From: Phototrophicus methaneseepsis
GTDB taxonomy: Bacteria; Chloroflexota; Anaerolineae; Aggregatilineales; Phototrophicaceae
NCBI RefSeq assembly: GCF_015500095.1
Contig: NZ_CP062983.1
Span: 5,518,001-5,582,000, forward strand
Direction of reading: 5' to 3'
Length of the DNA: 64,000 nt
Shown: positions 25,686-29,530 of the stretch, piece by piece
Numbering within the stretch: position 1 is the stretch's first letter
Layout of the letters: each line of letters starts with the position of its first letter
Notes under the pieces: model-generated
What the model saw: only the letters and a program-made list of their open reading frames with translations
Database searches by the model: none
Told to the model about the DNA's origin: nothing
Program-made: the position numbers and the translations under genes

Positions 25686-26486
25686 ATGCAACGCCTGATG
25701 GATAATCATGCCACACAACTGACATGCCCAAACTGCCAGACGACGATCCCGGCGGAAAATATTAATATTCAGAAGACGCTAGCGCTGTGCCCGAATTGTG
25801 GCGTCGTCTTTAACTTTGGCGAGGCCAACCAGCCCACAACCACCCCAAAAATCAAGCGGCGTAAGGCGAAAAAGCCGGAGTCTATCACGGTCACAGAGTC
25901 GTCGGGCCAGCTGGATATCGCCTATGCCTCCCTGGGTACGCGCAGCAACAAAATCGGCCTTGGCTTCCTGATGCTCACCGTCTTCCTGGTCTGGCTGATA
26001 TTATCCGTCCTGATGATATCTGAGGCGGAATATATGCCTGCGCTCATCTTTAGCCTGATCTTTGGCGCGGCGGAAATTGTGACCTGGCTGCTGTTCCTGA
26101 ATCGGACGCATATCATCCTTGATGAAACCGATCTCAAAAGCGTGACGCGCCCACTGAGCAGTGGCAACATCAGCCTGAACCGCGATGATATTGTAGATGT
26201 GACTTATGAGCCAACAACGTCGATGTTTGAATCCGCAACGACATCGTCTACCTTCAGCGTGATGGCGGTGCGCTATGATGGTCAAAAGCGCCTGCTACAA
26301 AGTGGCCTACAAGAAGAATATGCAGCTTACATCAGCCAGGAGCTGGCTCGCCATATCCGCGAAGACCGCACAGAAACGGCTATCAACAACCTGGACGCTG
26401 ACCGTGCTGAGTATGACGCGGGCGAGTTCATTGATTTAGATGATTATGACGAAGCATCGCAACACTCAAGCCAGAGCAATCGTTAA
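25686..26486 (+). CDS. Zinc-ribbon membrane protein, function unknown
   Basis: 266 residues. An N-terminal zinc ribbon (CPNC and CPNC, about 14-40) is followed by a basic linker (KIKRRKAKKPE) and two transmembrane helices (about 85-105 and 115-140). A soluble beta-rich region follows (THIILDETDLKSVTRPLSSGNISL), resembling the bPH_2 type, and then an acidic low-complexity tail. ATG at 25686 is used; ATG at 25698 is possible. It may be a membrane-tethered sensor or scaffold, which is inference from architecture. Confidence 0.7.
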   Translation: MQRLMDNHATQLTCPNCQTTIPAENINIQKTLALCPNCGVVFNFGEANQPTTTPKIKRRKAKKPESITVTESSGQLDIAYASLGTRSNKIGLGFLMLTVFLVWLILSVLMISEAEYMPALIFSLIFGAAEIVTWLLFLNRTHIILDETDLKSVTRPLSSGNISLNRDDIVDVTYEPTTSMFESATTSSTFSVMAVRYDGQKRLLQSGLQEEYAAYISQELARHIREDRTETAINNLDADRAEYDAGEFIDLDDYDEASQHSSQSNR

Positions 26487-26558: not shown

Positions 26559-26564
26559 TATAAA
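26559..26564 (+). promoter_or_regulatory. -10 box before the tRNA-like RNA
   Basis: TATAAA (continuing TATAAATAC) lies 18 bases before the first base of the tRNA-like structure, a distance that suits transcription followed by 5' processing. The -35 region is weak. Confidence 0.4.
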
Positions 26565-26582
26565 TACATGCTTACATCCCAT

Positions 26583-26661
26583 GGGGGCGCGATTGGTGTC
26601 GCCAATGGGTAAATCCTGCAAGGGAACTCATTGGGAGAAGGTTCGATTCCTTCCGCCTCCA
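26583..26661 (+). ncRNA. tRNA-like RNA, compact tmRNA-like fold
   Basis: A 79-base sequence that folds like a tRNA end but not a normal tRNA. GGGGGCG (26583-26589) pairs with CGCCTCC (26654-26660) as a 7-base acceptor stem with one G-U. GAAGG (26637-26641), the 7-base loop TTCGATT and CCTTC (26649-26653) form a perfect T arm, and A26661 is the discriminator; CCA is not encoded. No 5-7-5 anticodon arm can be drawn. Instead CCAATGGGT (26602-26610) pairs with ACTCATTGG (26626-26634) in a 9-base stem closing a 15-base loop. The D-arm region ATTGGTGTCGCC resembles the A-Y-U-G-G-U-U-U-C-G-A-C block of tmRNA. There is no room for an mRNA-like reading frame. It may be a reduced tmRNA, a remnant, or another tRNA-mimic RNA. 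Confidence 0.55.
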
Positions 26662-26690: not shown

Positions 26691-26716
26691 AAAGGGCACG
26701 CCATGGCATGCCCTTT
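26691..26716 (-). terminator. Terminator of the FtsX-type permease gene
   Basis: AAAGGGCA and TGCCCTTT arms around a 10-base loop, with TTTTT following on the minus strand, just past the stop at 26747. On the plus strand it could also end the tRNA-like transcript. Confidence 0.8.
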
Positions 26717-26746: not shown

Positions 26747-29530
26747 TTATTCATAGCGCAGCACATTCATAACGCGCTCGCGGATAGCGACATTGGCGCT
26801 GAGGAACGTCGAGACCACGCCGATGAGCACGGCTGCCAGGACAAGCCCCACAGCAATCAGGCGTGAATCCGCCGGCACCGGGATGGGCGTGCCGCTGAGG
26901 CTCGTAAACAGAGCGACGAACAGAGAGCTCAGGCCAATGCCCAGCAACGCGCTCAACAGTCCGACAATGCCCGTCTCCAGCAGCATCACCACCAATACGC
27001 GCCTGCGCTGCAAGCCAATCGCTTTTAAGATGCCTATCTGACGGCGACGTTCCAGCGTTGCCAGAGCGACAGTATTTGCCATAATCACCGCTGCCGCACC
27101 CAGCGAGAGCAAACCAACAACCGTTGGCAAAGCCGCAAACTGGTCAATCAGGCGGGAGAGCAAACTATCAATAAAGCGAATATCGACAACGAAGGTCGGC
27201 GGGATGCGGATAGCGCTCAGGTTGACCATGGCTTCATTCACATGCTCATCTTCAATATCGAAGGTATACACACGGAAAGACACCTCTGATTGAATGACGT
27301 CCGGTGCCACCATGACCGTGCTGCCCATCATGCTGCTAGAACTCGCACTGAGGCCAATCACTTCAAAGTTATAGTCACGGCCTCCGACGCTGTACGTCAC
27401 CGTTGAGCCAACCTGAATCCCCAGGAGTTGAGCAGTCTCCGCTGGCCCCACCATCACAGCACGGCCTGCATCTTCCGGCGTCAGATTGCGCCCAGCGACG
27501 ATGTGATTGAAATTATCGTAGACGGCCTGTGTATCCGTTTTCCATACGCTGAAGCTATTCCAGGCAAAATACGCTTGTACGGCAGGGTCCAGAAAGTTCA
27601 GTTCCCCATCCACCATCAGATCGCCATCACCGTCTCGCGCAAAATTCGGCAGGTTCATATCAGCGGGGCGGCCATCAATCGCAACCAGACCCGCACTATA
27701 CATACTGAGTACACTTCTCGAGCGCACCCCAGAGACTCCGTTCAAAGCCGTTGTCAAAGCAAGCTGGCCGACACTGCTAAGCGACCCCGGCGCAAACGGG
27801 AAGGCCATGACGTTACCGCCAAGCTGGCTGCTTAGCTGTAAGTTGAGCATCTCACGCGCACCCTGCCCGACGAAGGTGATACTGCTCAGCGCGAACATCC
27901 CCGCACTGAGCGCCAGTAAAGTGGTGGCAGTTCGCAGGCGATTGGTGCTGAGATTCCGCAGCGCCAAACGTAATTCCGTAATGCCGAAGCTGGGGAGTTT
28001 GCCAACAAGCCACACCACAACCCACAGCACCATCACCAGGAAGCCCAGGAAGGCCAACGTCAGTGTGACGCCAATAATGCCGATGATATATGGTGCAAGG
28101 GGGTTAAATTCAGCGCCGTATTCATTGGGCAGCAAGATGGAAGGCCGGATAATCTGGCCGACAATCAAGCCCAACATGACGGTCACCAGGAGCATCAAGC
28201 CGAGCGTCTGTAAGAGGCCCAGGCGGGGGACGTGCGCTTCATTAGGCCGCAAGATAATCCCAGGGCGGACCTGCAACGCCGTGAGGATCGGCGCGAGGCC
28301 GAAAATAGCCGAGACAACAATCCCCAGGGCCAACCCATACGCCAGCGCCTCTGGATAAATACGCCAGGGGATGCCCTGCTGCAAAAAGGCTTCGCCATAT
28401 TGATTGACGATGCCACCCAACAGCACGCCAATAATACATCCCAGTACGCTGCCGATGACGCCCAACGTCAATCCTTCTGTCAGGAACATCATAGCGACCT
28501 GCCGCCCTTTCAGGCCAAAGGTCTTGAGCGCTGCAATCTCATTTGTGCGACGTCGTACCATCACGATCATGGTATTCATAATGCCCACGCCGCCGATCAG
28601 CAGCGCACCGAGGCCCATGACCACGATAAAATCGGCCAGAATTTGGCTAATGACTGTGTAGCCTTCCAGCATATCGAACGTATCCTGGGCACGCGTCCAT
28701 TGACCATCATAGGTCAGTTCGCGCAGCGTCTCGACGTATGCATTGATGATTTCCTGCGTGAGGGGCACATCATCGGGGAAGTCAATAGCAATAGCATTGG
28801 GCCGCAGGTTCGGGTTGAGCGTCGCTCGCACATCGTCAATTTCAAGATACATGAAGCCGAAGAAGGCAGACAAAATCTGGGTGGGGCCTGCTTCTTCAGC
28901 GGTATCGACAATACCGCGTACGATAAATTCTTCTTCCGTGCCTGTGATGCGGATACGATCCCCAACGGCGATATGTTGCTGTTGGGCCATATTCTCGCTG
29001 ATGACAGCATCAAGGCCATCTGTATAAAGATCGCCCAGAGGCACACCCGGCGGGTCAATGGCTGTAATTTGATAATTAGAAGGGTAATTACCCGGCGTGA
29101 TATAGGTCGTATTGATGAACGAGAGGTTCCCAAAGCTGGACGATATGCCGCCGACTTCTTCTTCGCCGGTTGCATTGATCTTTGAAACCTGCACGCTGCT
29201 GCCGCGTACATAAACGCTGACGTTCGCGCCTAAAGTGCCTGCCCATTCGCGCACATTATTGATCTGCGCATCTGTGAAGGACACATTCTGGCTATCATCA
29301 AAGGCCCCCAACAGGCCATCGCCCGTATCGCCCTTCCAGATGCGGATATCGCCTTTATTTTCGTAGGCGACATTTTCAATCAGCGAATCACCGATTGCCA
29401 GCCCCAGGCCGCGCAGGGCGACAATCGTCGCGACGCCAGCAGCGATCGAGAAAATCGCCAGTGTGGACCAGCGACCACCCCGGCGTATATTGACAAATGC
29501 GTAGCGCAAATAAAAAGCGAGTCGTCTCAT
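26747..29530 (-). CDS. ABC transporter permease, duplicated FtsX/MacB type
   Basis: 927 residues. An N-terminal transmembrane helix (about 22-42) leads to a large extracytoplasmic MacB-core-like domain (about 45-280). A first FtsX domain (about 290-410, VVMGLGALLIGGVGIMNTM, RRRTNEIAALKTFGLKGRQV) follows, then two further helices (about 440-515), a second N-anchor (ELRLALRNLSTNRLRTATTLLAL), a second extracytoplasmic domain, and a final FtsX domain with RRRQIGILKAIGLQRRRVLVV. This 10-helix duplicated layout is that of large LolCE/MacB-like permeases. The ATPase partner is not adjacent. Likely role: lipoprotein, lipid or peptide extrusion. ATG has GAGG upstream. Confidence 0.9.
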   Translation of the reverse strand: MRRLAFYLRYAFVNIRRGGRWSTLAIFSIAAGVATIVALRGLGLAIGDSLIENVAYENKGDIRIWKGDTGDGLLGAFDDSQNVSFTDAQINNVREWAGTLGANVSVYVRGSSVQVSKINATGEEEVGGISSSFGNLSFINTTYITPGNYPSNYQITAIDPPGVPLGDLYTDGLDAVISENMAQQQHIAVGDRIRITGTEEEFIVRGIVDTAEEAGPTQILSAFFGFMYLEIDDVRATLNPNLRPNAIAIDFPDDVPLTQEIINAYVETLRELTYDGQWTRAQDTFDMLEGYTVISQILADFIVVMGLGALLIGGVGIMNTMIVMVRRRTNEIAALKTFGLKGRQVAMMFLTEGLTLGVIGSVLGCIIGVLLGGIVNQYGEAFLQQGIPWRIYPEALAYGLALGIVVSAIFGLAPILTALQVRPGIILRPNEAHVPRLGLLQTLGLMLLVTVMLGLIVGQIIRPSILLPNEYGAEFNPLAPYIIGIIGVTLTLAFLGFLVMVLWVVVWLVGKLPSFGITELRLALRNLSTNRLRTATTLLALSAGMFALSSITFVGQGAREMLNLQLSSQLGGNVMAFPFAPGSLSSVGQLALTTALNGVSGVRSRSVLSMYSAGLVAIDGRPADMNLPNFARDGDGDLMVDGELNFLDPAVQAYFAWNSFSVWKTDTQAVYDNFNHIVAGRNLTPEDAGRAVMVGPAETAQLLGIQVGSTVTYSVGGRDYNFEVIGLSASSSSMMGSTVMVAPDVIQSEVSFRVYTFDIEDEHVNEAMVNLSAIRIPPTFVVDIRFIDSLLSRLIDQFAALPTVVGLLSLGAAAVIMANTVALATLERRRQIGILKAIGLQRRRVLVVMLLETGIVGLLSALLGIGLSSLFVALFTSLSGTPIPVPADSRLIAVGLVLAAVLIGVVSTFLSANVAIRERVMNVLRYE

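Follow-up and report, generated by a model that had tools for sequence, protein, structure and literature searches.

The window analysed here is a stretch of 64,000 nucleotides from the genome of Phototrophicus methaneseepsis (contig NZ_CP062983.1, positions 5,518,001 to 5,582,000 of the forward strand), and our subject is a short gene within it whose RNA resembles a transfer-messenger RNA (tmRNA) reduced to its tRNA-like domain (TLD), without the mRNA-like part. The gene is intergenic, lying between gene stops at 26486 and 26747, and no listed reading frame of 80 or more amino acids overlaps it. With positions counted from the first letter of the window, the RNA and its parts are:

26583..26661, plus strand: TLD-only tmRNA-like RNA gene, 79 nucleotides, with the discriminator A as its last base and CCA not encoded
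26583..26589, plus strand: acceptor stem, 5' strand, GGGGGCG, with G3 at 26585; pairs with 26654-26660
26590..26601, plus strand: short D arm, CGAU-UGGU-GUCG, containing the GGNNUCG block of tmRNA D-loops (from the fold, the search pattern and the Rfam tmRNA consensus)
26602..26610, plus strand: P2-like arm, 5' strand, CCAATGGGT, nine pairs with 26626-26634; the arm covaries in the family
26614..26625, plus strand: inner hairpin UCCU-GCAA-GGGA, located at the arm's tip and 3' of UAAA (minimum free energy (MFE) fold)
26626..26634, plus strand: P2-like arm, 3' strand, ACTCATTGG (MFE fold)
26637..26653, plus strand: T arm, GAAGG-UUCGAUU-CCUUC (sequence and MFE fold)
26654..26660, plus strand: acceptor stem, 3' strand, CGCCTCC, with U70 at 26658 (sequence and MFE fold)

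The initial annotation of this locus had described a 7-base acceptor stem, a perfect T arm and a discriminator A, together with a 9-base arm (CCAATGGGT/ACTCATTGG) enclosing a 15-base loop; all of these are present, the arm with nine pairs. The acceptor stem, GGGGGCG/CGCCTCC, forms seven pairs with a G.U at the third, and with G3.U70 and A73 it is of the alanine type. The MFE structure, at -36.2 kcal/mol (z -3.46; 1 of 200 shuffles equally stable), consists of the arms listed above plus a 4-base-pair hairpin with a GCAA loop inside the 15-base loop, and all 25 pairs of the acceptor, P2-like arm, inner hairpin and T arm are intact, as are the letters of the elbow. The D region, TTGGTGTCGCC, is tmRNA-like, as had been proposed, but the exact block had been given incorrectly, since it reads UUGGUGUCGCC and not UGGUUUCGAC. 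The D-loop is reduced and carries the GGNNUCGAC block in the form GGUGUCGCC, with C for A, and the contact between D-loop and T-loop is present. The MFE fold of the window RNA also has a 4-base-pair D stem, whereas tmRNA has none according to the part of PMC3968760 that was available. There is no mRNA-like domain with a tag frame: frame 0 of the 79 nucleotides contains one stop, and the other two frames (1 and 2) stay open only if both acceptor strands are read through. The nested fold occupies nearly the full length and leaves no room for pseudoknots, and in place of an anticodon arm (five pairs and a 7-base loop) there is the 9-base-pair arm with its inner hairpin.

ARAGORN called neither a tRNA nor a tmRNA in the window, and Rfam returned nothing for the RNA at gathering score. 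When the whole genome was searched with the tmRNA model RF00023, the window RNA was the second-best match at 32.6 bits, under the 47-bit gathering score, after a full tmRNA (107.8 bits) and ahead of the best tRNA (29.5 bits), while relatives of the window RNA matched RF00023 above the cut-off, at 55.7-73.9 bits, in 13 of the 15 loci scanned. These comparisons describe a TLD without an mRNA domain in a molecule that is not a tRNA, and they support the proposal that the RNA is tmRNA-like rather than a tRNA with an intron. Canonical tmRNA (ssrA, RF00023) shares with the window RNA the G3.U70 acceptor, the GGNNUCG block in the D-loop, the T arm and a P2-like arm, and shares with the relatives UCGAC in most of them and GGAC before the T stem in about half; it differs from the window RNA in its tag frame, its pseudoknots and its length, which is 390 nucleotides in this genome against 79.

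The genome consists of a single contig of 5.63 Mb. A full ssrA elsewhere in it, suggested earlier as something to look for, does exist: one gene of 390 nucleotides (G000:C1:2469433-2469822, minus strand, L001) with the tag AEDNNFALAAA followed by a stop, which ARAGORN misses. SmpB is likewise encoded once (190.9 bits). As the full tmRNA and SmpB occur in the same genome, the window RNA is an extra and not a substitute. The T-loop of the full tmRNA is unusual, reading GGCAGGT (or GGGCAGGTC, depending on the choice of pairing), and the D-loop has AG; the same is found in the other genome of the genus (L233, G001). An origin of the window RNA as a deletion copy of this tmRNA was considered and rejected because the elbows differ, GG/UUC in the window RNA against AG with GGCAGGT in the tmRNA.

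Relatives were sought with a pattern (GGGG at the acceptor start, GGNNTCG in the D-loop, 25-55 bases, a T arm, and CTCC, with the third pair G.U) that matches once in the window and never in 100 shuffles of it. The pattern fixes part of the sequence and the family totals are lower bounds; the viral contigs are metagenomic. It was found in at least 120 stretches of viral contigs and in 23 stretches of genome_contigs (257 Gb of genomes). A filter for full pairing of the acceptor and T stem, applied to the 143 listed stretches and the window, removed 12 (2 of 120 viral and 10 of 23 genomic) and left at least 132 loci with 105 different sequences, of which 93 are viral, 13 come from genome contigs (two of these also viral) and one is that of the window. 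When the pattern for a second elbow type, described below, is included, viral contigs hold at least 114 different short RNAs. Letters that the pattern does not force recur among the listed unique RNAs, namely TCGAC in 76 of 105 and, ahead of the T stem, GGAC in 54 of the 102 examined; the discriminator is A in 104 of 105. CCA follows the discriminator directly in the DNA (read as ACCA) at 48 of the 132 listed loci. Eighty-two of the listed unique sequences are 73-80 nucleotides long, and 80 of these were aligned, L063 and L152 being omitted. A covariance model built from the window RNA alone (R1) matched 76 of these 80 loci at E <=0.001, all at the pattern positions and with no ordinary tRNA among them, which bears out the reading of the window RNA as tmRNA-like without an mRNA domain. 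The best R1 scores were 58.4 bits for a viral locus (L035) and 53.4 bits for a bacterial one (G297). A control pattern with a scrambled D block gave nine matches, two of them loci L036 and L121 again; the scrambled block is itself similar to the D arm of a tRNA.

The arms of the related RNAs contain many compensatory changes, a check that had been proposed for this locus. In the MAFFT alignment of 80, 12 of the 16 pairs predicted by RNAalifold changed on both sides, and at columns 23-54, within the P2-like arm, the pair is AU in 26 sequences, GC in 25, UA in 21 and CG in 4. In an alignment of 76 fitted to R1, paired cells made up 87.5% against 62.4% after shuffling and 37.7-51.9% when the structure was slid, and the covariation score was 0.606 against 0.146 shuffled and at most 0.091 slid. 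The R1-fitted alignment leans to the window structure, and the acceptor and T stem had been part of the selection, while the P2-like arm was not part of the selection pattern. To judge from these alignments, the structure of the short RNAs is under selection. The consensus of the relatives also shows a UAAAnCC...GGA layout that resembles the inner-hairpin region of the window RNA.

The third acceptor pair is nearly invariant. With all else in the pattern fixed, viral contigs contain at least 120 stretches with G3.U70, three with G3-C70, three with C3-G70 and none with A3-U70. Variants of the elbow (D-loop/T-loop) in viral contigs were at least 120 GG/UUC, 49 AG/UGC, no GG/UGC and two AG/UUC; the 49 AG/UGC stretches comprise 21 unique sequences, all fully paired, and in both AG/UUC matches a GG stands two bases farther upstream. 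Among full tmRNAs of the bacterial family to which the window belongs, seven combine GG with UUC and 18 combine AG with UGC (17) or GGC (1), none being crossed; for this count 30 loci (L267-L296) were fetched and the 25 readable ones were typed by eye, with loops of varying length. The D-loop and T-loop thus change in concert, as expected if the two loops touch. The portion of PMC3968760 available names G3.U70 and A73 as the keys for alanyl-tRNA synthetase (AlaRS), and the D/T-loop contacts as needed for SmpB. The occurrence of two elbow types among the tmRNAs of a single bacterial family offers a natural test set for this contact.

A second covariance model (R2), built from 76 RNAs, was used to search 396 genomes of the class, 400 of the phylum and 98 of the family; it scores tRNAs up to about 47 bits, and membership was counted from opened places only. 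At E 1e-4 it matched in 260 of the 396 class genomes. The 12 top loci (L190-L201) comprised seven short forms, three ARAGORN tRNAs, one ARAGORN tmRNA (L197) and one resembling the 3' part of a tmRNA (L199), and the remaining class matches, at about 44 bits or less, are not counted as members and, apart from those in genomes of genera g47 and g98, are taken for tRNAs. The phylum search gave five new places: a tRNA-Ala (L265), a match inside a tmRNA (L264), L199 again, and two of an odd type (L263 and L266). These two (1501-1569 in each, G489 contig C6) are alanine-type tRNA-like RNAs 2.6 kb apart, with differing middle arms, no tmRNA D block and no ARAGORN call. Within the window's family, matches near 1501 in L204 (G006) and L355 (G089) are likewise tRNA-like RNAs with G3.U70 and no ARAGORN call; L204 contains TTAAAGCCGAAGCGC, as does viral L059, but lacks the GGNNTCG block.

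In genus g98 (family f50) the short RNA stands at a conserved place in all six genomes, without a tRNA call and with G3.U70 kept in all six; an HNH-type gene lies downstream in every case (a Pfam match in one, N-terminal likeness in the rest), and tRNA-Lys and a NuoN-like gene lie upstream in four of the six. In the two genomes of genus g47 the RNA sits inside a cluster of tRNA-Lys, the RNA, tRNA-Asn and tRNA-Gln. Both genomes of genus g9, which belongs to the window's own family, have tag-less forms of 123-126 nucleotides (L298 7322-7444 and L299 7538-7660) near a gene, common to both, whose product combines an alanine racemase N-terminal domain with a D-serine dehydratase domain; at 9 and 5 bases upstream of these RNAs there is a TACAAT or TATAAT box. 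In G020 the short RNA shares its contig with phage families of the primase and ParB-like kinds, and there may be a second copy 68 bases upstream of it. R1 alone recovered nine members in the fetched regions (six from g98, two from g47 and one from G020) and no tRNA; the g9 forms were not recovered. A full tmRNA scores above the cut-off in seven of the eight g98 and g47 genomes, the exception being the fragmented assembly G194, and also in G000, G009, G020 and G027. In three of the g98 genomes the RF00023 match (L234 in G297, L235 in G354, L236 in G318) breaks in the T-loop after GGGTT, perhaps at an intron like that at group I intron position 2 of PMC11915505, as far as the available part of that paper describes it. 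A further bacterial short form, in Nostoc sp. UCD121 (L164 5848-5927, NZ_JACKZS010000007), adjoins an aldehyde dehydrogenase gene.

Ten proteins were compared with PHROGs; the matches at loci bearing the RNA included terminase in L063 and L158, portal and head protease in L049, head morphogenesis in L161 and, in L162, the RNA-binding protein family phrog_850. A frame of 150 or more amino acids lies over the RNA in 31 of 131 loci. A group with lengths of 73 and 91 nucleotides (L046, L049, L051, L063, L126, L148, L149) has its RNA-like match over the 3' end of a frame of 513-528 amino acids, which in L049 is the portal gene; the overlap could be a true overlap of RNA and coding sequence, or a coincidence kept by descent, and coding may in part have shaped the group. 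L060, which fails the pairing filter, also belongs to this group, whose other members are counted among the unique RNAs and are absent from alignments A2 and A3. The idea that it derives from archaeal (haloarchaeal) viruses led nowhere, the flanking proteins scanned being terminase in L063 and, in L049, portal and head protease. A promoter just upstream of the viral RNAs was also rejected: among 102 RNAs, -10-like hexamers are only slightly commoner close to the 5' end, with counts of 10 and 9 for the two closest 10-base bins and of 2-7 for the others.

ARAGORN, run on 49 of the 167 viral loci passing the filter, found ordinary tRNAs in eight, yet at the place of the RNA it reported nothing in 48 of 49 and, in L082, a 396-nucleotide 'tmRNA' with an implausible tag. 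ARAGORN has been used for tmRNA in phage surveys, and its blindness to 48 of these 49 loci may explain why such RNAs have been passed by; the available part of PMC9004378, where ARAGORN was used for typing, gives tmRNA in 402 of 18,146 phages. In view of the RF00023 matches at 13 of 15 loci, some of the short RNAs may be filed in databases under the plain name tmRNA. Comparison by BLAST with 50,697 phage records, a weak test at about 80 bases, returned 17, 1, 0 and 0 records for four relatives, and for the window RNA 42 records at E <=1, none covering 80% of the query. The phage records that we opened (cr7_1, cr124_1, S-CAM1, Wakanda, Calle_1 and phi38:1) proved to carry tmRNAs that are either full-length or permuted, in the case of cr124_1 going by its annotation only, and in MT836032 the match is cut by the contig end. 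R2 found nothing in a plasmid record matched by BLAST, and a near search with one viral contig yielded no phage record.

Short forms had been thought to be known from mitochondria only, which is too narrow. The accessible parts of PMC4131195 and PMC11915505, citing Mao et al. 2009, report a TLD-only tmRNA in mycobacteriophage DS6A (tmID 11587) and state that such a molecule inhibits endogenous tmRNA in E. coli; PMC11915505 also describes two plastid 'no CDS' tmRNAs of about 65 bp from Mallomonadaceae and, in its Table 3 (2025 tmRNA database), 9 'Standard, no CDS' and 72 'Permuted, no CDS' entries among 97,179. To these must now be added the many short forms in viral contigs and those in several bacterial genomes. 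In the portions of the literature searched there was no report of a large phage family of TLD-only RNAs, or of a chromosomal copy beside a full tmRNA. Compared by description only, the DS6A RNA and the window RNA are both TLD-only, the latter being chromosomal and beside a complete tmRNA system. Mitochondrial and plastid 'no CDS' tmRNAs also have a TLD without a tag frame, but in mitochondria they are mostly permuted, whereas the short form of the window coexists with a full tmRNA. The tmRNAs of phages S-CAM1, crAss-like cr7_1, Streptomyces phage Wakanda and Cellulophaga phage phi38:1 are phage-encoded relatives of tmRNA as well, and differ in matching RF00023, cyano_tmRNA or tmRNA_permuted over 184-362 nucleotides.

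The surroundings of the window RNA are as follows:

25686..26486, plus strand: upstream gene, 266 amino acids, with a zinc-ribbon-like N-terminus (Pfam match below cut-off)
26559..26564, plus strand: TATAAA, a possible weak -10 box, identified by eye, ending 18 bases upstream of the RNA
26691..26716, no strand assigned: 26-base hairpin AAAGGGC..GCCCTTT with one mismatch, identified by eye, a possible terminator without a clear T run
26747..29530, minus strand: downstream convergent gene, FtsX/MacB-type ABC permease, 927 amino acids (protein family scan)

The -10 box placed just upstream by the initial annotation is there as a TATAAA-like sequence, but a promoter scan upstream of the RNA gave nothing above threshold; the terminator scan made no call at the hairpin. 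Two proteins flanking the RNA match PHROGs families without known function, which does not decide for or against a mobile origin.

Given a family, a fold, an alanine-type acceptor, a tmRNA-type elbow, no tag frame and the partners encoded in the genome, we think it rather probable that the locus encodes a TLD-only relative of tmRNA that is charged with alanine, bound by SmpB and competes with or modifies trans-translation, its function being read by analogy with one published precedent, phage DS6A. AlaRS would charge the RNA, SmpB would bind its elbow and EF-Tu would deliver it to stalled ribosomes. At those ribosomes it would be a competitor of full tmRNA, sequestering SmpB or else accepting the nascent chain with no resume codon to follow, and would thereby damp or reroute trans-translation. 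Phages could gain in that their own truncated products are spared or that ribosome rescue is changed during infection, and chromosomal copies, including that of the window, may modulate the rescue system of their own host, whether they were acquired or have been kept for a long time.

A number of observations weigh against this interpretation. By one of five covariation measures, pairs with a change on both sides, the alignment (22) barely exceeds its shuffles (20.2), 49 of 500 of which reach 22, and the D helix is paired in only 65% of cells of the R1-fitted alignment. The window RNA itself departs from the consensus at two sites, with UCGCC for UCGAC and GGGA for GGAC. In g98 the first pair of the acceptor is missing from two of six genomes (G285, G336), A73 is replaced in two of six (by G in G190 and C in G336), and the MFE structures of two copies (G318, G354) are not tRNA-like. 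The window RNA has no DNA match in 60 relatives, R2 reports only 4 of 98 genomes of the family at E 2e-6, two of them with atypical RNAs, and the sole other genome of the genus keeps both flanking genes adjacent with a 222-amino-acid frame and no such RNA between them, which means either a gain in the window species or a loss in the other; the window copy could be a recent arrival or decaying. Finally, the strictness of G3.U70 argues against pure titration, for which charging should not matter. As far as the DS6A precedent is described in the available texts, charging is irrelevant to inhibition, which is hard to square with so strict a pair; this is no more than a hint that the nascent chain is accepted in nature.

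A possible but distinctly less likely reading is that some bacteria inherit a TLD-only RNA and keep it beside the full tmRNA, where it permanently partners SmpB and, charged with alanine, accepts peptides in untagged rescue or controls the level of tagging, and that phages widely use the same type of RNA against rescue in the host. If this were true, the strict G3.U70 would mean that charging and peptide transfer, and not mere titration, are the point.

It is unlikely, though by no means negligible, that the RNA serves a tag-free rescue that helps the ribosome, in which the nascent chain passes to the charged RNA, together with SmpB, and then drops off or is hydrolysed. Exceptions to G3.U70 are very few, the conservation of the RNA next to a full tmRNA agrees with a useful role, and the available part of PMC11915505 suggests a comparable role for mitochondrial tmRNAs, which seem to help with incomplete mRNAs although they apparently have no tag frame. 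On the other hand, the sole published experiment on such a form shows, as cited in the accessible texts, inhibition of endogenous tmRNA, and rescue is already covered by the full tmRNA in the seven g98 and g47 genomes and the four others named above. Tag-free rescue overlaps with the rerouting branch of the competition model, so that the weights we attach to the alternatives overlap and are not exclusive.

Similarly modest is the chance that the copy in the window is a remnant without function, either of a prophage or of a decayed tRNA or tmRNA. Such a relic would fit the absence of the RNA from the other genome of the genus, where the gap between the flanking genes differs, and the two departures from consensus; against it stand the 25 intact pairs and elbow letters with their z of -3.46, the ability of a model made from this RNA alone to score relatives at up to 58.4 bits, and an elbow that, differing from that of the resident tmRNA, speaks against a fresh deletion copy. 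More doubtful still is a role outside the ribosome, as an alanyl donor or other tRNA mimic (a substrate for a peptide ligase, a decoy for tRNA-cutting enzymes or a signal in RNA processing). An alanine-type acceptor without an anticodon loop for cutting or decoding, the ordinary tRNAs in 8 of 49 viral loci and the position of the g47 copies within a tRNA cluster would suit such a mimic, but the tmRNA-specific D block and GGAC would be unnecessary for it, and no aminoacyl-transferase family was seen in the small sample of neighbouring proteins scanned. A misread ordinary tRNA (tRNA-Sec, or a tRNA with an intron) is scarcely credible: the best weak Rfam match is indeed bacterial tRNA-Sec (RF01852), which has similarly long arms, but its 23.4 bits are far under the 47-bit gathering score, the RNA has no anticodon arm and no ARAGORN call, and the relatives match RF00023 instead.

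Trans-translation is nearly universal in bacteria, and a single phage TLD-only RNA had been known; there are now at least 114 different ones in viral contigs, and several bacterial lineages carry such an RNA beside a full tmRNA. Their sequences provide test pairs, in the elbow types and the acceptor variants, with which to ask whether SmpB, charging or both are needed, and the short form of Nostoc sp. UCD121 could serve as a workable laboratory system. The family described here suggests a means of interfering with ribosome rescue, or of modifying it, that is widespread yet has drawn very little attention.
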